Part shown: piece after piece, positions 3,720-37,875 of the stretch
How positions within the stretch are numbered: the first letter of the stretch is position 1
Layout of the letters: each line of letters opens with the position of its first letter
Assembly: GCA_008081395.1 (NCBI GenBank)
Contig: VMCJ01000031.1
Coordinates: 1-49,140 of the forward strand
DNA length: 49,140 nt
Source of the DNA: Rhodospirillales bacterium
GTDB taxonomy: Bacteria > Pseudomonadota > Alphaproteobacteria > Bin95
Reading direction: 5' to 3'
Translations under genes and position numbers: made by a program
Notes under the pieces: generated by a model
The model's input: the letters and a program-made list of their open reading frames with translations, nothing else
What the model was told of the DNA's origin: nothing
Database searches by the model: none

Positions 3720-4688
3720 TTACTGGAAGAGTGGGAGGTACTTTTTAGCTTCGTCTAGTACTTCCTGATATTGCGCCTGAGCCTTATCGGGCCCGACATA
3801 AACAACATCCTCACCTATCTTACCAATCAACTTAGAAACTGCTTTATTTTTTAGCAGCTCGCCAATCTTTTCACCCATCATTTTGACCTGATCATCCGGA
3901 GTATCAGGATGCATCGCCACAAAACGAGGAGGGTTGAAAGGCTTTAAACCAAGAGATTTAGCATTTGGAACACCTGCAAGAGCTTTTTGAGCTGATTTTG
4001 GGTAATCCAAGTCAGTAGAATTCACGATTATTGCATGGTCCTTTGCAAGGCCAGTTGCTGTTGAAGTGGTAACATTCACAAGGGCAATATGACCACCAAG
4101 ATAATCGTTTACCGCCTTACCTGTGCCACTGTAGGGAACCAGAATGACGCGATTTTCAAGCCCTAGCTGAGCTAAAAGGCTAGCCGGCCCTAAAAGCTGG
4201 GTCATGGTACCGCCAATACTGAGCTTCTTGTTATTCTTATCTTTAAGATAAGCTACAAGTCCTTCCCAGGTACTGTATGGCTTATCTTTAGGTCCAACTA
4301 AAGTCGGCTTCATAATTGAATAATACGCAGGCACCTTAATATTAGCCGGATCATATGGAGGTTTTTTCTCCATCAATGCAGCCATAACTGGCGTGGGACT
4401 GGCTAAAAGGATTGAATGGCCGTCAGCCTTTCCGTCCATCATATACTTCCAGCCGATGGTTCCGCTTGCCCCACCTCTATTTTGGACGTGCATACCATGG
4501 CCAAATACATCAAATGCGCCCGATGACATCACCCGAGCCCACCGATCAGTTCCTCCACCGGCACCAAAAGGCACAATGGTTTTGACAGTTGTAGATGGAT
4601 AGCTATCAGCAAATGACAGGCTTGGAGCCGTCATTGCTAAAGTAGTGGCACCAGCTAAGGCAAGAGCTGATCTTGTTAAAAATTTCAT
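3720..4688 (-). CDS. tctC: Tripartite tricarboxylate transporter substrate-binding protein (TctC family)
   Basis: Periplasmic solute-binding component of a TTT-family secondary transporter. The 322-residue protein starts with a cleavable signal peptide (MKFLTRSALALAGA..., predicted cleavage after SLSFA) followed by the family hallmark VKTIVPFGAGGGTDRWAR, whose Gly-rich loop binds the ligand carboxylate. The frame is open 13 codons further, but the ATG at 4688 has GGAGG nine bases upstream and starts exactly at the signal peptide, so it is preferred. It is last of tctB-tctA-tctC; a strong terminator follows. The family binds tricarboxylates, dicarboxylates, aromatic acids and other organic acids, so the ligand is open. 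The adjacent CoA-transferase and acyl-CoA dehydrogenase hint at a carboxylic acid that is metabolised as a CoA ester. Confidence 0.9.
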   Translation of the reverse strand: MKFLTRSALALAGATTLAMTAPSLSFADSYPSTTVKTIVPFGAGGGTDRWARVMSSGAFDVFGHGMHVQNRGGASGTIGWKYMMDGKADGHSILLASPTPVMAALMEKKPPYDPANIKVPAYYSIMKPTLVGPKDKPYSTWEGLVAYLKDKNNKKLSIGGTMTQLLGPASLLAQLGLENRVILVPYSGTGKAVNDYLGGHIALVNVTTSTATGLAKDHAIIVNSTDLDYPKSAQKALAGVPNAKSLGLKPFNPPRFVAMHPDTPDDQVKMMGEKIGELLKNKAVSKLIGKIGEDVVYVGPDKAQAQYQEVLDEAKKYLPLFQ

Positions 4689-4739
4689 AAACTTCTTTCC
4701 TCCATGTTCTAGTGAGGGTCGTGACATTTATGCCCTCAG

Positions 4740-26040: not shown

Positions 26041-26445
26041 ATGACTGAAGGTAACCCTACCCCAAAAGGTACTATTGCCCACGCGACAAAAGAAAACGCG
26101 CCTCTCGTTGATGGTCGCAGGGATTTCTTTAAATATCGTGACCTTGGGGTAATGGCAGCTTCAAATGGAGCTCTTCGCGCCCAAACAATGACTGCTATTC
26201 GCGGCATGACCGAGCCAACTGGGTGGCATTATCATCAATGTGATGGTCAGTTTGTTTACGTTCTTAAAGGTTGGGTTGATTTAGAATTTGAAACTGGTGA
26301 GCAAGTGCGCGTGAAAGAAGGTGAGTCACTTTTCATCCCAGGGGGAATGAAACATAACGAATTTGGTTGCTCGGAAGATCTGGATATTCTTGAGTTATCT
26401 ACACCAGGCGAAATGGGAACAGTCCCCTGCGCTCCTCCGGGCTAG
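26041..26445 (+). CDS. Cupin-domain protein
   Basis: A single-cupin protein of 134 residues. The first cupin motif appears as GWHYHQCDGQFVYVLKG (about residues 61-77), giving H-x-H plus the later Glu-like position, and the second as LFIPGGMKHNEFGCSED (about 97-113) with its histidine. Metal ligands are thus largely present. AGGAG lies seven bases before the ATG. Cupins of this size act as small dioxygenases, isomerases or ligand sensors; no reaction can be assigned. It is the last rightward gene before the convergent methyltransferase. Confidence 0.8.
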   Translation: MTEGNPTPKGTIAHATKENAPLVDGRRDFFKYRDLGVMAASNGALRAQTMTAIRGMTEPTGWHYHQCDGQFVYVLKGWVDLEFETGEQVRVKEGESLFIPGGMKHNEFGCSEDLDILELSTPGEMGTVPCAPPG

Positions 26446-26481
26446 AACAGAGTGTGCTTTGGCCGAAAAATTTAATTCTCG

Positions 26482-27312
26482 CTAGCTAGGCTTACTTCCC
26501 CCTGCAAGAAGAGCTGGCATCTTTAGTGTTAAAATATTACCCCCCTGCTTCTCCATGAGTTCCTTAGCACGCTTCATAATTTCAGCCTCTATTTTTGGCT
26601 TGGCGTGTTCAAGCTGAGCATCAAAAAGAGCTCGGGTGCGCACCGTGGCTTTAGCAAGGTTTGCCAAAAGTGCGTCAGGGCTTGATTGTCTGGTTAAACT
26701 AAGATTAGAGATTGAAATACTTGAAAATCCTGCTGAAGCGAGAGCCCCGGCCGCCTCACCATCCCGACTAAGCCGAAACATATCTGGACCAGGGGGAATT
26801 GGCACATCAAGACTTCCATGTGCAGCAATAGCGCCCCTAAAAATCTGGAAAGTTTCTACTTCTTCGGGCGATCGCCAAACAGTGAACGCGTATCGCCCAC
26901 CAGGTTTTAGTACACGGAAAGCCTCTGCTATCGCCTTATCGGGATACGCAAAATGAAGTAGGCCAAAGGCACATACTACAGCATCAAAACTATTGTTTTC
27001 AAAAGGCAAATTCTCTGCATCACCTTCTTTAAACACTGCCGCAGGGTAGAGCTTAGATGCTTTTTCCACCATAGCAGCAGCGAAGTCGAGACCAAAAGCA
27101 ACAGCCCCTCTCTCAACAGCTAGACCTGCGGAATAGCCAGGACCACACGCAACATCGAGCAATCGAATTTTGGTTGCATTATCGCCTTCACATCCAACAA
27201 ATTTTAGAAGAGTTTCAGCCGCTTTTGAGGTAGAAGTGTGTGTAACCTCGAAATAACTATCTGCTAGTTTTTCCCAACCAGCTTTCTCAAACTCTTTGAA
27301 TTCTTCGTACAT
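26482..27312 (-). CDS. Class I SAM-dependent methyltransferase
   Basis: Rossmann-fold methyltransferase of 276 residues. Motif [14 protein letters not shown] (about 51-63) binds AdoMet; Asp75 or so in GLDFAAAM follows; [25 protein letters not shown] is the methyltransf_11-type motif II/III region; [14 protein letters not shown] closes the core. The C-terminal third (after about 185) is a variable, mainly helical substrate domain ending in Lys/Glu-rich helices. The motifs resemble UbiE/small-molecule methyltransferases, but no ubiquinone gene is adjacent. It is convergent with the cupin gene and divergent from the acyl-CoA synthetase, 69 bases away. Substrate unknown. Confidence 0.85.
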
Positions 27313-27381
27313 CAGTATCTAGCCCCCTCGACGCTTGAAAGCTTCGGCTGCATGATCTTAAAAGGCAAGGGAGGTCAAAGA

Positions 27382-28977
27382 ATGTCTGGAGTCCTAACAC
27401 TAACCAGCCAATTAACTCATGCAGCGGATGTTGCAGGACACCAAACGGCTTTAATTCACGAAAATGGAAAAACCTCTTTTTCTGAACTTGAGGAATTGGC
27501 TCAAAAGTACGCTGCTGGACTAACAGCACTTGGCTTAGGCCGAGGAGACCGGATCGCCCTTTGGCTCCCAAACTCTCCAGAACATTATGCTTTGACGTAT
27601 GCTATATGGCGTATTGGTGCGATTAACGTAGGCGTAAACACTCGCTTTAAATCCAAAGAGGTCGAGGATATCGTTGGTCGATCTGGAGCCAAGCTACTTG
27701 CGTTCGACCCTGGATTTAAAGGTATTGAATTTGATAACATATTGGCTGGTGTAGATAGCAATTCACTTAAATCTCTAGAAAAGGTCTTACTGTTCGGTGA
27801 AAAAGATCAGGGAATAGTACTGGATCGGCCTGCCTTTCCGCTATCAGAGCTCTCTCAAAACGGAACTATGCAAGAGGATAGAGCCACTCCTGACACGCCA
27901 TGCCAGATTTTTACTACTTCCGGTACAACCTCAAAGCCAAAATTTGTTCTACACGCTCAACGTAGCCTTGCATTACACTCCCAACGCCTTCCCCATTTTT
28001 GGGGTTTAGACAGACCAGACGGGGTTGTATTTCAAGCAGCTCCCCTTTGTGGTGTTGTAGGTCTTAATGTTGCAACTTTGGGCATTGCTGCAATTCGGCC
28101 TCAAATAATTCAGTCTGTATTCGAGCCTATCTCAGCTGCTGAATTATTTGTTCGCCACGGCGTCACACACATGATTGGAATGGATGCGATGTACGAACGT
28201 ATGGTCGCAAGTCGTCCCGAAAAAATTCCATTCCCAAAACTTGCGCCCGCACCATCTTTTGGAGCCAATCCGCCTTTGGAACCATTTCGAAAAATTGCTA
28301 GAGACCGAGGTATTCCAATTTGTGCTGTTTATGGCATGAGTGAGGTCTGTGCGCTTTTTGCTTTTCAGGACATGTCTCTTCACGAAGATGATCGCGTAAT
28401 TGGCGGAGGACAGCCGGTTCATCCTGAAACAGAAATTCGTGTAAGTGATCCAGACACCGATGCCCCTCTACCAACCGGACAGGAAGGTGAAATTCAAATT
28501 AAGAGCCCTACAAGAATGTTGGAGTATGCTGACAACCCGGAAGCAACTACCGCATCACTTACCAAAGATGGGTTCTTTAAGACGGGTGACCTTGGTAAAA
28601 TGCGCGAAGATGGAAGTTTTGTTTATCTCGCTCGAATGGGGGACGTACTTCGCCTAGCCGGGTTTCTTACAAACCCAATGGATATTGAAAAAGAATTGGA
28701 GGCGGATCCGGCTATCCTTGAAGCTCAAACAGTACAAACAAGAATTGGAACGCGGGATAAAGCTTTTGCATTTGTTCTTCTGAACGGCACTACTCCTTTT
28801 GATGAACAAAGGGCAATTGCACGTTGCAGAGATCGTCTAGCCGACTACAAGGTTCCTATCAGGGTAGTCCCATTGGACGCTTTTCCAGTCACAGAGAGTG
28901 CCAATGCCATCAAAGTTAGAAAAACAGATCTGCGCCGCATGGCGGAGGAAATCCTGGCTGAGGAGAGTGTAAGTTGA
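27382..28977 (+). CDS. Acyl-CoA synthetase / AMP-dependent ligase
   Basis: Adenylate-forming enzyme (ANL superfamily), 531 residues, that activates a carboxylate to acyl-AMP then acyl-CoA. The P-loop-like A3 motif is TTSGTTSKPKFVLHAQ (about residues 183-198), A5 is AVYGMSEVCALF, A7 is KTGDLGKMREDGSFVY. The final lysine region near the end reads TESANAIKVRK, with Lys before V-R-K as the candidate catalytic lysine. GGGAGG lies before the ATG at 27382, so the in-frame upstream 27352 codon is rejected. The start of the next gene overlaps its stop (TTGA). A medium/short-chain or aromatic acid is possible; the chemical class cannot be told. Confidence 0.87.
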   Translation: MSGVLTLTSQLTHAADVAGHQTALIHENGKTSFSELEELAQKYAAGLTALGLGRGDRIALWLPNSPEHYALTYAIWRIGAINVGVNTRFKSKEVEDIVGRSGAKLLAFDPGFKGIEFDNILAGVDSNSLKSLEKVLLFGEKDQGIVLDRPAFPLSELSQNGTMQEDRATPDTPCQIFTTSGTTSKPKFVLHAQRSLALHSQRLPHFWGLDRPDGVVFQAAPLCGVVGLNVATLGIAAIRPQIIQSVFEPISAAELFVRHGVTHMIGMDAMYERMVASRPEKIPFPKLAPAPSFGANPPLEPFRKIARDRGIPICAVYGMSEVCALFAFQDMSLHEDDRVIGGGQPVHPETEIRVSDPDTDAPLPTGQEGEIQIKSPTRMLEYADNPEATTASLTKDGFFKTGDLGKMREDGSFVYLARMGDVLRLAGFLTNPMDIEKELEADPAILEAQTVQTRIGTRDKAFAFVLLNGTTPFDEQRAIARCRDRLADYKVPIRVVPLDAFPVTESANAIKVRKTDLRRMAEEILAEESVS

Positions 28978-30125
28978 CCGAATGCCGTTATGTCAATCCG
29001 CGCTCGGGGGCGGAATGGAGTATTTCGCAGCCGCTCTGGTCCGCTCCTGATGACGGTAATTATCTAAATCTCACTCAAGCAACCATCTTTGATGCTCAAG
29101 AAATTGAGACTTCAGACCCTTCCATTTGGCGTTATTCAAGAATGCTGCGAATTGAAGCGCCTCCTCTATCTCTGGGTGAGGGTTGGACGCCTCTCATTGA
29201 AGGTGAATGGGATGGGGCCAAAGTAGCTTTTAAATGCGATCATATGATGCCGTCTGGATCGTTTAAAGACCGTGGCGTATCTGTGATGATGGCTTACCTT
29301 AAAGGCCATGGCATACAAAAAATTCTCGAAGATTCCAGTGGAAATGCAGGATCATCAGTAGCGACCTACGCTGCCAGAGCCAATATGGAAGCCACTATTT
29401 TTTCACCTTCTTCCGCCCCACCAGCAAAGCTATCCCAAATGAGAGCAATGGGTGCTGAACTTCGAGCCATCGACGGCCCTCGACAAAATGCTGCTGATGC
29501 TGCTCTTTCAGAAGCTTTGAAAGGCACCTTTTATGCCGGACACAATATTCAGCCCTTCTTCTTGGAAGGCTGCAAAACAGTTGCCTTTGAGCTCTGGGAA
29601 CAACTAGGAGGCGCCCCACCTGATCATGTGGTAGTTGCATGTGGCCAGGGCGGCAACGTGATAGGTCTTCACATTGGATTTAAGGAGCTCTATGCCGCAA
29701 ATCTAATCAATAAGATTCCCGCAATTCATGGCGTACAAGCCATCAATGCGGCGCCCTACCTCGCGTCTTGGGAAAGTAATGGCGAGCCAATAACTATTGA
29801 TCCAAAACCATCTATTGCAGATGGCATAACCTCTTCAAAAGGCGTTCGTGTCAGAGAAGTTCTCTCTGCGTGTCGAGAGAGTGGTGGCAGACTGATTGGT
29901 GTTACCGAACTTGAGATTATAAATGCTATGCGAAGACTTCATGGCAAGGGTTTCTTTGTAGAGCCAACTACAGCGGCCGGTGCCGCAGGGCTTTCAAACT
30001 TAATCTCAACTGGTGTTATTCAGAAAAATGATAGCATCGCCCTACTCCTGACCGGAACTGGCCTAAAGGCCATAAATTCAATTCAGGAAAGTACCAATCA
30101 AAGTCCTAACCCACCATCTACATGA
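28974..30125 (+). CDS. Threonine synthase-like PLP-dependent enzyme
   Basis: Fold-type II PLP enzyme of 383 residues. GEGWTPLIEG precedes the PLP lysine, Lys98 in MMPSGSFKDRG; the phosphate-anchoring loop is EDSSGNAGSSVATYA (about 122-136); a Gly-rich TGTGLKA stands near the end. The overall arrangement and length fit threonine synthase or a close threonine/serine dehydratase-type lyase. Translation starts at TTG 28974, overlapping the acyl-CoA synthetase stop (TTGA), with GGAG about ten bases upstream, so the two genes are coupled. Coupling to an acyl-CoA synthetase rather than to hom/thrB argues that this may not be the housekeeping ThrC. Its last 28 bases overlap the convergent SDR gene. 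Confidence 0.83.
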   Translation: MTECRYVNPRSGAEWSISQPLWSAPDDGNYLNLTQATIFDAQEIETSDPSIWRYSRMLRIEAPPLSLGEGWTPLIEGEWDGAKVAFKCDHMMPSGSFKDRGVSVMMAYLKGHGIQKILEDSSGNAGSSVATYAARANMEATIFSPSSAPPAKLSQMRAMGAELRAIDGPRQNAADAALSEALKGTFYAGHNIQPFFLEGCKTVAFELWEQLGGAPPDHVVVACGQGGNVIGLHIGFKELYAANLINKIPAIHGVQAINAAPYLASWESNGEPITIDPKPSIADGITSSKGVRVREVLSACRESGGRLIGVTELEIINAMRRLHGKGFFVEPTTAAGAAGLSNLISTGVIQKNDSIALLLTGTGLKAINSIQESTNQSPNPPST

Positions 30126-30844
30126 ATAATCTGCCCAGTCACATAGGCTGCTTCGTCTGACAAAAAATAAGCTACGGCGGCCGCACATTCATCGGGTTTT
30201 CCCAGACGAGCAAAGGGAATGCGCTCTATAATCTCCTGCCAGCGTTCTTGTGAAAGAGCAGCATGGGCGCCTTTATCTTTTTGAGTGTAGCCAGGGGCGA
30301 CAATGTTAACCGTGACGTTGGCACCTGCGAGTTCGGATGCAAGGCTAAGCGCCAATGCCTCTAATGCTGCTTTCGCAGCAGCTGATGCAGGAAAATGATC
30401 TCCTGAAGGAGAAAAACGATGAGCAACAAATGACGATATAGCTACCACACGGCCGCGCTCGGATGCTTGCAAGAAAGGCGCCGCCTCTTTTGCCATTCGG
30501 AAAAAGCTATCAGCTATCGGTGTCAAGCTTGCTTGGATACCATCGTCAGGCAAATCAGTAATCAAACGGCTATCCGCAAAACCAGCGTTAGAAATTAGCC
30601 AGTCAATACCTCCCATAAAGTGCACGGCATCTTGAACCAATTTTGCTGCGTTTGACGGATCTGATAAATCGAGAATGGCTGTTTCTGTTTCGGCCCCGGC
30701 TGCTTGAGCTGCTTCCGCCACAGCCAGTAGGCCACTAACATTCTTGCGACTATGCAAAACGAGTTTTACGCCGGGCGCTGCCACTCGGTTTGCAATGGCA
30801 GCCCCTATACCTGAAGCGGCGCCAGTAATTACTGCGGCTGTCAT
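30098..30844 (-). CDS. Short-chain dehydrogenase/reductase lacking the catalytic tyrosine
   Basis: Classical-size SDR of 248 residues with an intact cofactor site (TGAASGIG, residues 7-14), SNAG near 90, the active-site serine region ISS (137-138) and the C-terminal [12 protein letters not shown]. The YxxxK motif is not intact: Lys158 is present, but the residue four before it is Ser154 and no tyrosine occurs between 138 and 158. The insertion between Ser and Lys is also three residues longer than usual. It may be a non-catalytic or altered SDR. The ATG overlaps the gpmA stop (ATGA), so the two are coupled. Its 3' end overlaps the convergent PLP-enzyme gene by 28 bases. Confidence 0.85.
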
Positions 30845-31542
30845 TCGTGAGGCTTTAGGTATCGCGCCTTAGACTTGGGCCTCAAGTTATCATCTAAGTC
30901 ATAAACCAGAGGATTTCCTGTCGGGATTTCAACCTGGGGTATCTCTAGATCAGAGATCCCATCCAGATGTTTCACCAGGCTACGTAAACTATTGCCATGA
31001 GCAGAAATAAGGACTCGCTGTCCAGACCGAATCTTTGGAGCAATCTCAGCTTCCCAATATGGCTGGACCCGCTCAATGGTATCTTTGAGGCTCTCCGTTA
31101 GAGGAATATTCTCCCTTGGTAAATCCCGATAACGAGGGTCATCAATTGGATAACGTTCGTCGTCAGACGCAAGACTTGGTGGAGGAATATCAAAACTACG
31201 CCGCCAAATCATAACTTGGTCAAGGCCATGCTTTTCAGCTGTTTCTGCCTTATTTAATCCCTGCAAACCACCATAACTCCGCTCGTTTAAACGCCAGTCT
31301 TTAACAACCGGCAACCAACGGCGATCCATCTCATCCAATACTATCCAAAGGGTTCGAATTGCACGAGTTAAAACGGATGTGTAACAGATATCAAAATCAA
31401 ATCCCTGTTCACGCAGCAATCTTCCACCTTCTCGAGCCTCTGCCTCACCCGCGTCAGTGAGGTTCACGTCTTTCCAGCCGGTAAAACGATTTTCTAAGTT
31501 CCATTGGCTTTGGCCGTGGCGAATAAGCACCAGGTTCGACAT
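30841..31542 (-). CDS. gpmA: 2,3-bisphosphoglycerate-dependent phosphoglycerate mutase
   Basis: Glycolytic/gluconeogenic enzyme interconverting 3- and 2-phosphoglycerate. The 233 residues show [24 protein letters not shown] (His9 is the phosphorylated histidine), the [11 protein letters not shown] segment characteristic of dPGM, and [17 protein letters not shown] with the second histidine. The C-terminal tail after GNPLVYDLD (about 210) is short but normal. It is followed, with a four-base overlap, by the tyrosine-less SDR. Upstream, 66 bases separate it from the permease pair. The motif set is distinctive enough to exclude the general phosphatase members of the superfamily. Confidence 0.94.
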
Positions 31543-31608
31543 AGTTTCAGTAAAACTCCATAGGGGTAAGAAGGTCCTTATAAAGATAGATACATCATCG
31601 ACTCATAG

Positions 31609-32109
31609 CTAGCGCGCAAGAATAAGCTCGATCAACTCTGCACCAAGGATAGCAAATGGCAATGCTACAAAACCTCCTGCTAAACGGCGCGCTGCCATGC
31701 TCATCCCTACTAGGGGAACCTCCCAGATGATGAAGCGCTGCACGTTAACCAATGTCCATGATGCATAAAGTGTTAAGATTTGCGCAAATCCAGCATCAGC
31801 CTGAAGTAACGCAGCACCGAGGGGCAAAACCACCATAGGTCCAGTTGGGAGAATAGCACCAGCAAAGGCGGCAAGAGCAAAACCTATAATCCCACTCTCA
31901 GGTCCCACTAGACCTGAAACTAGCTCCCTCGGCAAAAGTTCTGCAAGAAATCCTGCAATAAACGCAGCGGGTATTACTATAGGAAGGACTCTTATTGCCT
32001 GGGTTTTTGAAATCTGGAGAGCTTCTTTAAAGCTAACTCCAGGCTTTAACGCTGTGGCAAGCGCAGCCGCTAAAACAAGCAAGATCATGATTATTAGCGA
32101 GGCCGACAT
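31609..32109 (-). CDS. Half-size permease, C-terminal-type repeat (ArsP/YraQ-like)
   Basis: A 166-residue membrane protein with about four to five hydrophobic segments. Its core, LLPRELVSGLVGPES, GAILPTGPMVVLPL and SWTLVNVQRFIIWEVPLVG, lines up residue by residue with the preceding gene's protein (LAPREAVARTLGGNS, GALLPGGPWVIMPL, AWGALGLNRLLVWELPFLG). The two genes therefore look like the two internal repeats of one permease encoded separately. The layout resembles the ArsP/YraQ (DUF318) permeases, but the cysteine motif of that family after the GA-LLP turn is replaced by TGPM. The start at 32109 shares one base with the stop of the upstream gene (TAATG). Transported substrate unknown. Confidence 0.7.
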   Translation of the reverse strand: MSASLIIMILLVLAAALATALKPGVSFKEALQISKTQAIRVLPIVIPAAFIAGFLAELLPRELVSGLVGPESGIIGFALAAFAGAILPTGPMVVLPLGAALLQADAGFAQILTLYASWTLVNVQRFIIWEVPLVGMSMAARRLAGGFVALPFAILGAELIELILAR

Positions 32110-32639
32110 TAACGTACCGCCACGTATGGAAGGAACCGGCGTACAGCTAATCCAGCTATAATTGGCAGTGGCAGCGCGAGTAACCAACGAAGGCCCGCAG
32201 TTTCAAAACCCAAGAAAGGAAGTTCCCAAACAAGCAACCTATTAAGACCAAGAGCACCCCAGGCGATTACAAAAGCAACACACGCGCCAGCATCAGCACC
32301 AGCCCGTGAAATAGTTAGCGCCAAGGGCATAATTACCCAAGGCCCACCCGGCAATAACGCTCCAGCTCCTGTAGCAAGCATTAAGCCCTTCATACCCGAA
32401 TTTCCACCAAGGGTCCTGGCCACTGCTTCACGCGGGGCCAATACTGTTAAAAACCCAACTAAAGCTAAACCAAGTAGGAACCGCGGCGCCATGGTTTCTA
32501 CAATTTCCATGTCTGCCCAAAATGCTCGAATGAAAGCCTGTTCACCCTTGACGAAATAGCAAATCACCGCGAGAGAGATCGCCAAACTCCAGATGAACAG
32601 CGCCGGTCCATGACCACCAAAGCGCTTACCTTTGCCCAT
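32109..32639 (-). CDS. Half-size permease, N-terminal-type repeat (ArsP/YraQ-like)
   Basis: A 176-residue membrane protein, first of the permease pair, with a basic N-terminus (MGKGKRFGGHG) and about four to five hydrophobic segments. PREAVARTLGGNSGMKGLML followed by GALLPGGPWVIMPL strongly recalls the ArsP/YraQ repeat, in which the same position reads PFCSCG; here no cysteine is present in the loop (the only ones, Cys22 and a Cys in ADAGACVAF, are in helices). The product would need its partner at 31609-32109 for a complete two-repeat transporter. The ATG at 32639 is the only reasonable start. The 179-bp gap upstream holds no gene that I can support. Confidence 0.7.
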   Translation of the reverse strand: MGKGKRFGGHGPALFIWSLAISLAVICYFVKGEQAFIRAFWADMEIVETMAPRFLLGLALVGFLTVLAPREAVARTLGGNSGMKGLMLATGAGALLPGGPWVIMPLALTISRAGADAGACVAFVIAWGALGLNRLLVWELPFLGFETAGLRWLLALPLPIIAGLAVRRFLPYVAVR

Positions 32640-32818
32640 AACAATACTGCTTGAAAACGAAACTAGAGAAACGAAGATAGTCTTTCTAGATCAACACGGA
32701 AAGCGCTTCCAAACATCAAACTTACAGATCGTCAAAACTGAATAGCATGACATATATTTTGAACAGGGATGCTGACTAAGAAGAGAAGAGAAGCCAGATG
32801 GCGCTCCGCAGAAACGCT

Positions 32819-34198
32819 CTATGTTTTAGCGCCAATATCCCAGAAGAGCCCCGTCATTAAACCCAATCCCTCTCTTAAGATTGGAGCCAATGCATGCTCA
32901 TCCGGGGCATGTTGCTGGCATCCCGAATATGAATGAGGAACCCAAACAGTCGGCATGCCGAGAATATCTGTAAAAACATCATTTGGTATGGAACCACCTA
33001 AGCTAGGAAGAATAGCTGGCCTGTTACCAGAGGTTTTCTCGAATGAATTAACAGTGCGTGCTACCCAAGGCTCATCTAATTCCGTCCTGGTTGCTAACAT
33101 TGCCCCTCGAGAAGGTTCAACTTTAACCATGGCATATCCATTAACTTTTAGGTGGTCACGGATTGCTTCCAAGAAGCACTCATGATCTGAACCAGCAACG
33201 AAACGTATCTGACATACAGCAAACGCATGTCCTGGAATTGCATTAACCGGTGCAGATGGATTTCCAGTCTCCATCGCAAGAATTTCTAAAGTGTTCCAAG
33301 CAAAAACACGTTCATTTGGTGTGAGGTCTTTAGCACCCCAGTCTCTATCAATCGCTGGTGCATCTGGACCGCCATCTACACTTAAATCGGCCAAAGCTGC
33401 ACGGACTGCGTTAGATATTGGAGGAGGCTTCAATCCTTCAACCAAAAGCTGACCTCGTCCATCAACCAAAGTGGAAATTGCGTTCACTAGCTGTACGGCG
33501 GGATTAGAGATTAGACCACCCCAGTTGCCAGAGTGATGTGCGCCATCACGCGCATTTATAGAAAGTGTAAAATTTAAATTACCTCTGCTACCAAGAAATA
33601 CGGTTGGCCGTTCGGCCTGTACGCGAGGACCATCAGAAGCAATGAGAACATCTGCTTTGAGACGTTCCTTGTTTGCTTGAGCAAACTCTCGCAAACCTTT
33701 GGAGCCCATCTCTTCCCCGGTTTCGATAAGGACGCGAAGGTTGAACCCAAGCTCTCCCCGCTCCGCTAAAACAGCCTTTAAAGCCTCAAAATTAGTTGTG
33801 TGTTGACCTTTATTATCTGCTGTACCTCGCCCATACCAGCGCTTACCCTCAACAGTTATTTTCCAAGGAACGAGGCCATCTCTCCAAAACTCCTCTTGGC
33901 CGCGAACTGTGTCTCCATGGCCGTATACAAGGATAGTTGGCAAATCTGCCCCCTCATGGCGTTCACCTATCAGAATTGGGCCCGCATCGAGAGGGTTTGG
34001 ATGAACATCCCAAACAACTCCTAGATCAGCCGCGAGACTAGGGCCAATTTCCTCGAAAAGGTATCTATCCAATTCCGAAGCCTGCGACGGTTCTTGGCTA
34101 GTACTCTGTATTTCCACTCGCCTGTTAAGCACGCTGAAAAATTCGCCGTTGTCGAAGCCGTCTATGGCGCGAGAGATAGCTGCGGAACGATCAGTCAC
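32819..34198 (-). CDS. M20-family metallopeptidase
   Basis: Di-zinc M20 peptidase of about 459 residues. Metal-binding motifs are in order: VYGHGDTV (about residue 96) with His and the adjacent Asp, WYGRGTADNKGQ (Asp bridging the zinc ions, about 132), IETGEEMGSKGL (catalytic and metal glutamates, about 163), then a late histidine in WVPHSYSGCQQHAPDEH. A dimerisation domain lies between about 190 and 320. GTG at 34198 is preferred as start: GAGG/AGGG lies upstream and it overlaps the preceding stop by eight bases (GTGACTGA). The more upstream TTG at 34222 is less likely. It would hydrolyse dipeptides or N-acyl amino acids in the cytoplasm. Third gene of a peptidase/CoA cassette. Confidence 0.88.
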   Translation of the reverse strand: MTDRSAAISRAIDGFDNGEFFSVLNRRVEIQSTSQEPSQASELDRYLFEEIGPSLAADLGVVWDVHPNPLDAGPILIGERHEGADLPTILVYGHGDTVRGQEEFWRDGLVPWKITVEGKRWYGRGTADNKGQHTTNFEALKAVLAERGELGFNLRVLIETGEEMGSKGLREFAQANKERLKADVLIASDGPRVQAERPTVFLGSRGNLNFTLSINARDGAHHSGNWGGLISNPAVQLVNAISTLVDGRGQLLVEGLKPPPISNAVRAALADLSVDGGPDAPAIDRDWGAKDLTPNERVFAWNTLEILAMETGNPSAPVNAIPGHAFAVCQIRFVAGSDHECFLEAIRDHLKVNGYAMVKVEPSRGAMLATRTELDEPWVARTVNSFEKTSGNRPAILPSLGGSIPNDVFTDILGMPTVWVPHSYSGCQQHAPDEHALAPILREGLGLMTGLFWDIGAKT

Positions 34199-35072
34199 GT
34201 GCCCTAGCCTCTGGTTCAACAATATCTAAAATCTTACGGGTCATCTCTTTGACCTCGCGGCGCCGCTTTTCAACATCTTTTCCATGCCAGTTGTAAAAAC
34301 CTCTTCCAGCATCGGCCCCGGTGAAACCCTGTTTTGGCAAATTTTGGACAAAAGGTGCTGGCTCTTTACTTAGGGTAAGCTTAGGTATGATTTCAGACTG
34401 CGAGGCAGCATGAACTACTAATCCTCCAAGGTCCTTTACTTCAATAAGGCCTCCAGCACACATGCGCGGCCCCATGGCGAGCCTGGCAAATTTGTCTACA
34501 TCTTCAACTGAACACAGACCCTGCTCTATCATCCAATAAGCTTCATGCAGCATCGCATGCTGCAAACGATTAAATAAAGCACCTATAATCGGCCGATTAA
34601 GGAGGACAACTTCTTTATCAGTACGCTTTAAAGCCTCGACTACTCTGTCTTTTGTTTCATCGGAGGTGGCCGAAATCCGAATGGCTTCCACACATGCAAA
34701 TGCATCAGCAGGTTGTAAATAATGGACACCCATAAACATATTTTTGTGCTGCAACGGTGCTGCTAAGTCTTCTAAGTCGAGACCAGAGGTATTAGATGCA
34801 ATAATGCTTGCACCACCCCATTTGGCTTCGATAGCTGCAAATAAGTCCTGCTTTGGCGCAATTTCTTCTGGGTAGTTTTCAGAAATATAGTCTGGCGGTT
34901 CATCTGGTAACGACGATACTGCTTTAACTCCCGCTGGCGCATTAGCCAAAGCCTTCGCGGGATCTCTCGTAAGGATAGTGACGTCAAAGCCGCCAGCATG
35001 AAAGGAGGCGGCAACGCCTTTGCCCATAACCCCATAACCGGCAACAAGAATGGTTTGAATTTTATCAATCAA
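34191..35072 (-). CDS. 3-hydroxyacyl-CoA dehydrogenase family protein
   Basis: NAD-dependent dehydrogenase of the 3HCDH family, about 293 residues. The Rossmann domain begins at ILVAGYGVMGKGVAASFHAGGFDV; IIASNTSGLDLEDLA holds the conserved N-T-S segment, then MGVHYLQPADAFACVEAI with the catalytic His (normally H-F-F-N-P, here H-Y-L-Q-P). The C-terminal domain includes NRPIIGALFNRLQHAMLHEA. Substitution of F-N-P by L-Q-P around the active histidine marks it as divergent from fatty-acid beta-oxidation enzymes. A TTG at 35072 fits a start, with GGGAG eight bases upstream and only four bases after the stop of the M81 gene; a TTG at 35087 is also in frame. Likely a hydroxy-acid or hydroxyacyl-CoA dehydrogenase of unknown substrate. 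Confidence 0.82.
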   Translation of the reverse strand: MIDKIQTILVAGYGVMGKGVAASFHAGGFDVTILTRDPAKALANAPAGVKAVSSLPDEPPDYISENYPEEIAPKQDLFAAIEAKWGGASIIASNTSGLDLEDLAAPLQHKNMFMGVHYLQPADAFACVEAIRISATSDETKDRVVEALKRTDKEVVLLNRPIIGALFNRLQHAMLHEAYWMIEQGLCSVEDVDKFARLAMGPRMCAGGLIEVKDLGGLVVHAASQSEIIPKLTLSKEPAPFVQNLPKQGFTGADAGRGFYNWHGKDVEKRRREVKEMTRKILDIVEPEARARD

Positions 35073-35076
35073 CAAA

Positions 35077-36570
35077 TTAACTCCCAATCTGAGCGCCGGC
35101 AGGGCTTAATTTTACACCAGGACGCAACTTGGTAAATTTTAAATTCGCCGGGTTCGCTGACATTGCACCTGGTGCCACAACATCGATCACAGCTTCAGCT
35201 ATGGGCTGGAAGTGCCCACGGAAATGCGCGGAACTTTTAAGCGCCAACAGTTTTGTTTCTGCTGGTTCGATACCAAAATGACGAAAACTTTCTTGATCAG
35301 CAGCTTGCACCCTCTTGCCAATAACAACGATATCCAACCCACCAATCCGAAGACGTGCAGCTGGCGAAAGATCCATCCGTGCGCCTTTATAAAGAGGACC
35401 GGATCCAATCATTTTCCCATCCGAAGCAACAATAACCTTGAATTGGCCGGCTAGGGGATTGTCACCAGCAACTCCGTGCTTTCCGCCTAGGGCCACCGCA
35501 ATTTCTGCCCCTTCTCCAGCCTTCAACGCAATCGTGGCTACATGAGGGTCATAGACTAGCCCAGCTGCTGAACCCGACACACCAGCATCGAGCATGGCGC
35601 GAATCAAACCCATAGTATCACCGGTGCCGCCAGCTCCAGGGTTATCTTGGATATCAGCTAGAACAATGGGCCTAGAAGCCCCTTTTGAAAGTTTTATAGC
35701 CTTCGAGACAGCTGCTTCTGGCGTTAGTATATCCCCCCCCCAAGTGGACTCTAAAGCCTCAACCATATCTGCAATTCGATTCACCGCATCAGAAGCGGAT
35801 GGCCCGTAACCATAAACACTCGGGGCGCAATCAAGAATATCAGCCGCTGGAAAGCCACCTGCAAATGAAAGTAATACATTGGTTTCAGCTTCAACCGCAG
35901 CAACAGCGGCAACCACATCGGACGCTGGCTGGCGCATAGTACACCCTGCAAACAGTGGGATAAGAAATGGTATTTGGCGAAGCGAAGCTTCGGTTTTAAC
36001 TGCACCATTTGCGAGGTGCATATCTAACCACTGAGCCATACGACTGCCCGTTTCCGCCATATCCGCATGCGGATAAGAGCGATATCCGGTGATAGCAGTT
36101 GCAAAATCCAATGCCGCTTGGCTCATATTTGCATGATAATCAAGAGTTACAACGATTGGTAAATTAGGGCCAAATTTCTGGCGAAGACGACCTAAAAGCT
36201 CTCCTTCACCATCTTCAATGTGCTCCGCCACCATAGCTCCGTGAAGAGCCAGATAAAGCGCATCAAAATCACCTACACCCGCCAACTCTTCGAAAAGCAT
36301 TGCAACAATGGTCTCATAAGCATCCTCAGTGACTTCAGCTGATGGGGCTGCCGAAGCGAAAAGCAGAGGTAAAATTTCATGACCTTGAGCAGAAGCAGTT
36401 TCAATGAAACCAGAAATTGCAAGATTAAAGCCCTTTACTGCTGCGGGCATCTCTTCGCCCCTCACTAAAGATGGCCAACTATATCCGGTCTCAAAATCTT
36501 GCATTGTTGCTTTATGTGGCGCGAAAGTATTGGTCTCGTGTCTAAAACTGGCAACAGCTATACGTGCCAT
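35077..36570 (-). CDS. M81-family metallopeptidase (MlrC-like)
   Basis: A 497-residue protein of the M81 family, named after MlrC, which finishes degradation of linearised microcystin; most homologues act on other, unknown small amides. Visible hallmarks are ASFRHETNTFAP (residues 7-18, with the conserved His-Glu), LYLALHGAMVAEH, VTLDYHANMS (metal-binding Asp/His, about 142-151), GYRSYPHADMAETG and the second-domain ADIQDNPGAGGTGDTMGLI. GGGAG stands eight bases before the ATG at 36570. It leads the leftward cassette M81 - 3HCDH - M20 and is divergent from the second CoA-transferase across 93 bases. Catalytic family call is strong, substrate open. Confidence 0.9.
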   Translation of the reverse strand: MARIAVASFRHETNTFAPHKATMQDFETGYSWPSLVRGEEMPAAVKGFNLAISGFIETASAQGHEILPLLFASAAPSAEVTEDAYETIVAMLFEELAGVGDFDALYLALHGAMVAEHIEDGEGELLGRLRQKFGPNLPIVVTLDYHANMSQAALDFATAITGYRSYPHADMAETGSRMAQWLDMHLANGAVKTEASLRQIPFLIPLFAGCTMRQPASDVVAAVAAVEAETNVLLSFAGGFPAADILDCAPSVYGYGPSASDAVNRIADMVEALESTWGGDILTPEAAVSKAIKLSKGASRPIVLADIQDNPGAGGTGDTMGLIRAMLDAGVSGSAAGLVYDPHVATIALKAGEGAEIAVALGGKHGVAGDNPLAGQFKVIVASDGKMIGSGPLYKGARMDLSPAARLRIGGLDIVVIGKRVQAADQESFRHFGIEPAETKLLALKSSAHFRGHFQPIAEAVIDVVAPGAMSANPANLKFTKLRPGVKLSPAGAQIGS

Positions 36571-36663
36571 TGGATTATCTCCCGCCCAAATTCAGTGCAA
36601 AGCATAAACGCCGTTCCCGCATTCGCAATCCAAGGCATATACTGTTCAACAAGGAGTCTGTTG

Positions 36664-37875
36664 ATGGAATACCAACCAAGTGCTGAGTGCCCACTAGACG
36701 GCGTGCGTGTTCTCGATCTTTCACGGCTTGTGGCCGGCAATATGACGACGCACGTGCTCGCAGATAATGGTGCCGAGGTCATAAAAGTCGAACCGCCAGG
36801 AAAAGGCGATCCTCTGCGTGACTGGGGAGCGGATGGCATTAGCGTTCAATGGAAAATATATGCGCGAAATAAAAAAAGCATTGTTTTGAACCTTAGAGAA
36901 GAGAAGGCCAAAGCTATCCTTCTGGACTTGGTCGAAGGCGCTCAGGTTTTTGTAGAAAATTTTCGCACTGGCGGCCTCGAGAAGATGGGCCTGGCGCCTG
37001 AGACGTTATGGGCACGCAACCCAAAGTTGATCATTTTGCGCGTCACTGGATTTGGTCAGACGGGTCCCTACAGCCATAAACCAGGTTTTGGCACCCTCAT
37101 AGAGGGGATGAGTGGCTTTGCCATGAAGACCGGTTCAGCGGACAGGCCACCTTCACTACCAAACATGGCGCTGGCCGACATGGTAGCTGGTCTTTATGGA
37201 GCTTTTGCCTGCATGACAGCACTTCGAGAAGTAGAAACTAAAGGTGGAGACGGACAGATTATTGACCTATCCCTACTCGAACCTTTGGTATCAATTCTTG
37301 GCGGAGACGCAGCCATTCATCACGTGACAGGCAAAGCACCTATGAGGTCTGGGAACCGGTCGATGACTGCAAGCCCACGGAATACCTACAGGACCAAAGA
37401 CGGCCACTGGCTAGCAATTTCAGGCTCGATGCAAGCAATGGCCATGCGTCTCTTTCGTGCCATTGGACGTGGAGATATGTGCGATGACCCACGATACTCT
37501 ACAAACGCCGCCAGAGTGGCTCATGCCGATGAAGTAGATGGTATTGTTCAAAAATGGGTTGGAGAACGAACATTGGCAGAAAACCTAAAATTCTTTGAAG
37601 AAACAGAGGTTACGGCAGGACCTGTTTACGATGCCGGACAGCTCCGAGAGGACCCTCATATTTTAGGGCGCGAGGCAATTGTTAATATTACCGATAACGA
37701 TGCTCCTGATGGCTACCTGCCTATGCACAATATAGTTCCAAGACTATCAAAAACTCCTGGAGCTATAAGGACACCTGCACCAAAACTTGGAGAACATACA
37801 GATGCAATCCTGAGTGAGGTTGGATTAACAAAGCAAGAAATATTGGACCTTAAAAGCGCAGGTATCGTTGCGTAA
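36664..37875 (+). CDS. Family III CoA-transferase-like protein with variant active site
   Basis: CaiB/BaiF-type protein, 403 residues from the ATG at 36664 (AAGGAG eight bases upstream; the longer open frame from 36499 overlaps the divergent M81 gene and is rejected). DGVRVLDLSRLVAGNMTTHVLADNGAEVIKVEPP and the C-terminal APKLGEHTDAIL are family hallmarks. At the place of the catalytic aspartate (Asp145 in the paralogue at 1177-2394) the sequence reads KPGFGTLIEGMSG, with Gly143 eight residues before the conserved Gly and a Glu four later. I recall this FG-x3-E form from other family members, so it may mark a subfamily rather than loss of function. It leads a rightward pair with the SnoaL-like gene. 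Confidence 0.88.
   Translation: MEYQPSAECPLDGVRVLDLSRLVAGNMTTHVLADNGAEVIKVEPPGKGDPLRDWGADGISVQWKIYARNKKSIVLNLREEKAKAILLDLVEGAQVFVENFRTGGLEKMGLAPETLWARNPKLIILRVTGFGQTGPYSHKPGFGTLIEGMSGFAMKTGSADRPPSLPNMALADMVAGLYGAFACMTALREVETKGGDGQIIDLSLLEPLVSILGGDAAIHHVTGKAPMRSGNRSMTASPRNTYRTKDGHWLAISGSMQAMAMRLFRAIGRGDMCDDPRYSTNAARVAHADEVDGIVQKWVGERTLAENLKFFEETEVTAGPVYDAGQLREDPHILGREAIVNITDNDAPDGYLPMHNIVPRLSKTPGAIRTPAPKLGEHTDAILSEVGLTKQEILDLKSAGIVA

Follow-up and report, generated by a model that had tools for sequence, protein, structure and literature searches.

Two adjacent half-size ArsP-family genes most likely encode one heterodimeric inverted-repeat transporter

The window, meaning the whole stretch of DNA analyzed here, comprises 49,140 nucleotides of a Rhodospirillales bacterium contig (VMCJ01000031.1, positions 1 to 49,140). 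At 31609-32639 it contains two adjacent genes on the minus strand, encoding membrane proteins of 176 aa (gene A, 32109..32639) and 166 aa (gene B, 31609..32109, ATG start). The original prediction had noted their TAATG junction (32109..32111, minus strand), in which the stop codon of A and the start codon of B share one base, and had aligned the two products with each other. Both observations were correct. By BLASTP, A and B share 34% identity across 130 columns (E 1e-13), identifying them as paralogues. Codon differences from a same-genus genome were mostly silent (73 silent and 16 replacement in A, 86 silent and 8 replacement in B), so we regard both as real genes. In this one comparison, where dS was near saturation, the NG86 estimates of dN/dS were ~0.055 for A and ~0.018 for B, showing purifying selection on both.

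Gene order around the pair (MlrC, 3-hydroxyacyl-CoA dehydrogenase, M20 peptidase, A, B, phosphoglycerate-mutase-like protein, SDR) was conserved in two same-genus records, one of which had an extra gene inserted between the M20 peptidase and A. Promoter- and terminator-like sites around the pair were no more frequent than in shuffled sequences. The surrounding region, 26041-37875, looks like an uncharacterised acyl-CoA catabolic cluster, with members whose Pfam names include acyl-CoA synthetase, PLP enzyme, SDR, 3HCDH, M81 MlrC peptidase, class III CoA-transferase, and cupin.

As the original prediction anticipated, both proteins matched the ArsP_1 family (PF03773), scoring 34.1 bits (A) and 33.0 bits (B) against a curated Pfam cut-off of 32.3 bits. 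ArsP_1 also matched 50 of 50 members of the A alignment and 13 of 14 members of the B alignment at 1e-3. Of the 294 profile positions, each protein covered just the first half (A, 15-133; B, 2-123), so that neither has in one chain the two repeats spanned by profile positions 1-294. There was no further ArsP_1 match in the same genome besides A and B. The SO_0444 Cu/Zn efflux model NF033936, with an equivalog cut-off of 300 bits, gave A just 46.8 bits (positions 2-125 of 351) and did not match B.

With the ArsP permeases of PF03773 (TC 2.A.119), A and B have in common the Pfam family, the order of the halves, and the predicted orientation. ArsP permeases differ in being single chains of ~320-400 aa and in having a C(S/T)C turn, the motif of those ArsP proteins that export trivalent organoarsenicals. 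This motif is placed at the equivalent turn of ArsP in the available portion of PMC4435449, and the ArsP sequences that we examined also carry it. Unlike these, one single-chain ArsP relative from Omnitrophota (L163) has CCW at its first tip and CAT at its second.

In A and B the motif is absent, with PGGP and PTGP in its place, and the turns read PGGPW (A) and PTGPM (B) exactly as originally reported. The PGGP tip of A (residues 97-100; 32340..32351, minus strand) coincides with a break between helices 79-95 and 100-112 of the AlphaFold model, and the PTGP tip of B (residues 88-91; 31837..31848, minus strand) aligns with it. Both tips are conserved. Among 61 A proteins the four positions were P in 59, G in 61, G in 61, and P in 61; among 61 B proteins they were P in 61, G in 47, G in 60, and P in 56. 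After the tip comes a broken helix. In A its motif runs from W127 to G144, includes R134 and E139 (32208..32261, minus strand), and contains a helix break in the model; in B it runs from W118 to G135 with R125 and E130 (31705..31758, minus strand). These residues are invariant or close to it in A and conserved in B (A and B respectively: W in 61 and 56, R in 60 and 59, and E in 61 and 60, each of 61). Cysteine was found close to the tip in 1 of 61 A proteins and 3 of 61 B proteins. The description of the pair as cysteine-free is thus accurate for the turn and for B, which has no cysteine, but not for A, which has Cys27 and Cys120. As the turn lacks cysteine, ArsP-type soft-metal chemistry appears unlikely for this pair.

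The adjacent arrangement seen in the window is recurrent. A profile of A matched 17 of 289 sampled Alphaproteobacteria genomes at 1e-20, with exactly two adjacent matches in all 17, and B as a query matched 12 of 190 genomes with two matches apiece. Among 60 relatives, 11 were matched, 8 with a pair and 3 with a single chain; in one of the 8, gene A was broken into two frames. Scanning named genomes gave 62 confirmed loci (two of which, L085 and L094, derive from one MAG). A was followed by B in 59 of these, while the remaining three (L097, L105, and L107) held one half gene only. Going by record titles, carriers include Acetobacteraceae, Rhodobacteraceae, Hyphomicrobiales, and Burkholderiales. 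Intergenic bases were absent in 48 of 60 pairs, with a 4-base overlap of A and B in 36 pairs and a one-base overlap in 6 others, which points to translational coupling.

Among 72,556 plasmid records, 2 matched, both from Agrobacterium larrymoorei and one of them a Ti plasmid. On this plasmid (pTiAF3.44, L047) the pair adjoins genes for a rhodanese, DmoA/NtaA-type and LLM monooxygenases, and an ABC transporter, with trb genes beside them. A second, remote type of adjacent half-size pair was observed at three loci (L157, L146, and L172). These have other tips (LMPGFIAFP or similar; TTVGG or QAGP) and a reversed gene order, the B-like half preceding the A-like half. Several large Alphaproteobacteria genomes of family f147, genus g171, gave two weak PF03773 hits each (E ~1e-11), possibly representing another pair lineage.

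We next consider membrane orientation, an aspect absent from the original prediction. For jointly aligned A and B proteins, charge bias was calculated as the number of Lys and Arg residues in the N-terminal end, loop 2-3, loop 3-4, and the C-terminal end minus the number in loop 1-2 and loop 4-5. The window's proteins have biases of +7 (A) and -3 (B). Across 61 pairs the bias was positive for every A (mean +8.4) and negative for every B (mean -4.5); for this count the loop borders were set after viewing the consensus, and the pairs are related and so do not represent independent events. With the borders fixed, 14 further pairs were collected, of which 4 were identical to sequences already used. 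The 10 new pairs all agreed (A, +4 to +11; B, -2 to -8). Internal loops alone separated the two proteins on average (A, -1 to +4, mean 1.0; B, -7 to -3, mean -5.2). A five-TM topology without a re-entrant hairpin was set aside, as it split the charges less well (A positive in just 42 of 61). From these sequence counts, A and B are predicted to insert in opposite orientations, A with both termini inside (N-in/C-in) and B with both outside (N-out/C-out).

Single-chain ArsP had the same polarity. In all 12 chains examined, drawn from 33 loci that were read (L110-L139 and the L011-L013 group), the N half had a bias of 0 to +6 and the C half of -6 to -1. Given these opposite charges, ArsP itself looks like an inverted repeat. 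The opposite loop charge of its halves conflicts with the 4+4 topology published for ArsP within the TOG superfamily (available portion of PMC7176098).

To examine the fold, we used AlphaFold2 to model a related pair (L053) rather than the pair in the window; in L053 the B gene is in frame with A, and the intervening stop was read as Gly. Of the 51 rows in the underlying alignment, 8 covered both halves; B-only rows were included and A-only rows were not present, leaving the A half with 8 rows. The read-through chain formed one compact fold (pLDDT 85.2, pTM 0.80), and the halves packed as one two-repeat permease in this related pair, as the original prediction had supposed for its own. Each half consisted of two long helices, a short helix, and a pair of helices joined at the PxGP turn; then come a helix interrupted close to a conserved Gly and a kinked final helix. 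Modeling A from the window by itself gave the same elements (AlphaFold, pLDDT 90).

A Foldseek search with the joint L053 model returned nothing below E 0.12. When the candidates were realigned, the 40 leading rows were all elevator transporters, which we take to comprise 36 members of the IT superfamily and 4 of CNT. Read with the caution that helical models without a clear match typically reach a best Z of 14, the top Z scores were 17.5 for a MleN-MetQ model, 16.5 for ArsB (315 residues, 4.6 A), 16.5 for NaS1, 15.5 for Pho90, 15.0 for NaDC3, 13.3 for LaINDY, 10.9 for YdaH, 10.8 for TRAP SiaQM, and 9.7 for CNT, with the next rows at 5.6 or below. Given Foldseek values of at least E 0.12 and the typical no-match Z of 14, the IT assignment rests on the consistency of the list and on coverage. 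Half A alone gave no IT match in the fold search, only weak matches. The best of these was the Gut sorbitol transporter (PDB 9x2m; Z 6.9, 142 residues), which belongs to another class; the resemblance may reflect no more than a common arrangement. The failure of A alone would fit a fold completed solely by both halves together, yet it is also a caution. Searches for solved relatives by sequence found none for profile A6 and none for a full-length ArsP.

ArsB and the other IT elevators (DASS, Pho90, YdaH, and TRAP QM) are built from inverted repeats with a hairpin and then a broken helix in each half, which is the arrangement predicted for A and B. In the available text of PMC13381914, the ArsB half shows this order of hairpin then discontinuous helix. 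IT elevators differ from A and B in being single chains or larger, with five TM helices plus the hairpin per half in ArsB and about four in A and B. No sequence-level match was found between A/B and the IT superfamily.

Thirteen single half genes of 165-178 aa, including those at L097, L105, and L107, were found in Sumerlaeota and Omnitrophota. When the phyla of the single-half loci were searched at 1e-15, 12 of 40 and 22 of 145 genomes matched, many with single chains or other types. The bias of these singletons lay between those of A and B (-1 to +4, n=13), with start-codon choice shifting some by a few charges. So small a bias is as expected of dual-topology proteins, which would form homodimers of subunits inserted both ways up.

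In a FastTree phylogeny of 164 halves, A was monophyletic (0.956), and A, B, and the singletons formed one group (0.951) separate from the two ArsP halves, which clustered with each other (0.98). AU tests were performed on 44 and 52 of these sequences (168 columns). Fission of a single-chain ArsP, which groups A with the N halves and B with the C halves, was rejected both without singletons (p 0.001) and with them (p 0.0002); forcing this grouping cost 39-44 log units, and a common half-size origin was accepted. Since fission was rejected and a half-size origin accepted, the sequences are best read as a duplicated half gene rather than a broken ArsP. The "split" permease of the original prediction accordingly stands as a recurrent two-gene architecture, but not as a broken ArsP. 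Twelve of the 13 singletons formed one clade (0.973). The tests accepted B monophyly, A+B monophyly, and attachment of the singles to either A or B alike; with all of these accepted, the trees favour no particular position for the singletons, ancestral or other.

Our data suggest that A and B probably each supply half of a single secondary transporter of the elevator type, being oppositely inserted and derived from a duplicated half-size gene. Each half would form a bundle of about four TM helices and a re-entrant hairpin tipped by P-x-G-P, followed by a broken helix with conserved Arg and Glu. A would have both ends in the cytoplasm and B would lie upside down relative to it, so that an A:B heterodimer in the cell would rebuild the inverted-repeat architecture of single-chain ArsP and of IT-superfamily transporters. 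If ArsB and the DASS family are a guide, the substrate would be held mid-membrane, where the two tips and two broken helices would meet, and the hairpin domains would glide past the outer helices in an elevator motion that may be coupled to ions. The ancestor would have been a half-size gene whose product perhaps inserted both ways up, which was duplicated and whose copies were then each locked in place by opposite charge bias.

Other explanations account for part of these observations. If the pair were a broken single-chain ArsP, of recent or old fission and still doing the job of ArsP, one would expect both halves to match ArsP_1, with A oriented as the N half, B as the C half, and the two in like order, all of which is seen. 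The rejected tree grouping, the closer relationship of A to B than of either to the ArsP halves, and the absent C(S/T)C turn make this account very improbable. The existence of single half genes in Sumerlaeota and Omnitrophota is compatible with A and B acting separately, as homodimers or as a regulator and a transporter, with adjacency reflecting merely co-expression. We consider this quite unlikely in view of the orientation bias, which is strong in A and B and not in the singletons, the adjacency of both halves in 17 of 17 positive genomes, and the confident joint model of the related pair.

A further alternative concerns how the halves pack. ArsP has been assigned to the TOG superfamily with 4+4 TM repeats (in the portion of PMC7176098 available), and because such repeats are even-numbered, parallel halves are implied for ArsP. 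A and B might then likewise pack as parallel, TOG-like repeats. Against this stand the opposite Lys/Arg bias in all 61 pairs and all 12 ArsP chains examined and the resemblance of the model to inverted-repeat IT folds. Together, charge pattern and predicted fold indicate that the halves are probably not parallel, the structural comparison having been one with IT folds alone. We hold the parallel arrangement to be very unlikely, and favor oppositely inserted halves of one transporter.

Genomic context was examined for indications of substrate. Among 131 close co-directional neighbours at 60 pair loci, there was no constant neighbour that would name one. These neighbours were taken from our own gene calls, which at the annotated locus L047 recovered 17 of 18 genes, missing trbK and differing in some starts. 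The most frequent families were RibD_C (13), isochorismatase (10), UbiD (8), and MFS (6), followed by ornithine cyclodeaminase (4), aldehyde oxidase/xanthine dehydrogenase (4), TctA (3), and TctB (3). The leading families look like lineage-bound catabolic clusters, and the neighbours overall hint weakly at catabolic or sulfur contexts.

One specific candidate is the transport of sulfur compounds, e.g. sulfite or some other sulfur oxyanion that desulfonation releases. A rhodanese lies directly upstream of the pair in L047 and L050, with a DmoA/NtaA-type monooxygenase in L047; TauE/SafE and sulfatase genes occur beside the Sumerlaeota single half gene in L107, and a sulfatase in L105. NaS1 is also among the fold matches, though a fold match shows no function. 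Most loci, however, have other neighbours, such as the UbiD, isochorismatase, and RibD_C genes counted above, and no sulfur gene lies near the pair in the window, so that we consider a sulfur substrate unlikely. Otherwise, a small organic or inorganic anion would be our guess. At L107, the TauE/SafE gene (4204-4692) is itself half-length (163 aa, profile 3-114 of 237) and immediately precedes the single half gene; the sulfatase is farther upstream.

Paired SMR transporters and Fluc channels are antiparallel dimers, some of them encoded as adjacent gene pairs. Their small folds are unrelated to A and B and are without re-entrant elevator hairpins. A closer parallel is UPF0016, for which the available portion of PMC4067407 describes weakly biased singletons, adjacent pairs whose members have opposite biases set by gene position, and antiparallel proteins with the two domains fused. 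These three stages recur here as ArsP-family singletons, A/B pairs, and single chains. We found adjacent paralogous halves with opposite Lys/Arg bias by gene position (61 of 61 and 10 of 10 pairs), 13 singletons of little bias (-1 to +4), and inverted halves in 12 of 12 ArsP chains. UPF0016 differs in being another family, with three TM helices per half, an E-x-G-D motif, and putative cation transport, according to the same portion of PMC4067407.

Half-size ArsP members are already known, as a "4" TM topology is noted among ArsP members in the available part of PMC7176098. We found no description of paired half-size ArsP proteins in the open-access literature searched. Neither the family nor the principle of antiparallel pairing is new; their combination with singletons and fusions in one family was not found described in that literature.

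The pair is recurrent and conserved, and most likely constitutes a single ArsP-family transporter, a heterodimer of inverted repeats with an elevator-type fold. This reading would explain a pair annotated in one record merely as "permease" and "hypothetical protein", and, as a two-gene system, would allow the halves to be mutated or tagged separately. We propose more tentatively, as a possibility we would not yet back over its converse, that the ArsP family is a minimal IT-type elevator family showing all stages of inverted-repeat evolution and that the TOG placement of ArsP is wrong. If so, the stages would be half genes inserting both ways in Sumerlaeota and Omnitrophota, locked pairs in Alphaproteobacteria, Burkholderiales, and this window, and fused ArsP, which would move into a structurally understood class. 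Arguments on inverted-repeat origins have usually drawn on SMR, Fluc, UPF0016, and similar small families. Unfused elevator halves with unpaired and fused relatives would make the path from homodimer to heterodimer to fusion testable for an elevator with re-entrant hairpins. The pair in this window would then be an extant elevator in two pieces, and may retain a stage of the evolution of two-part transporters.
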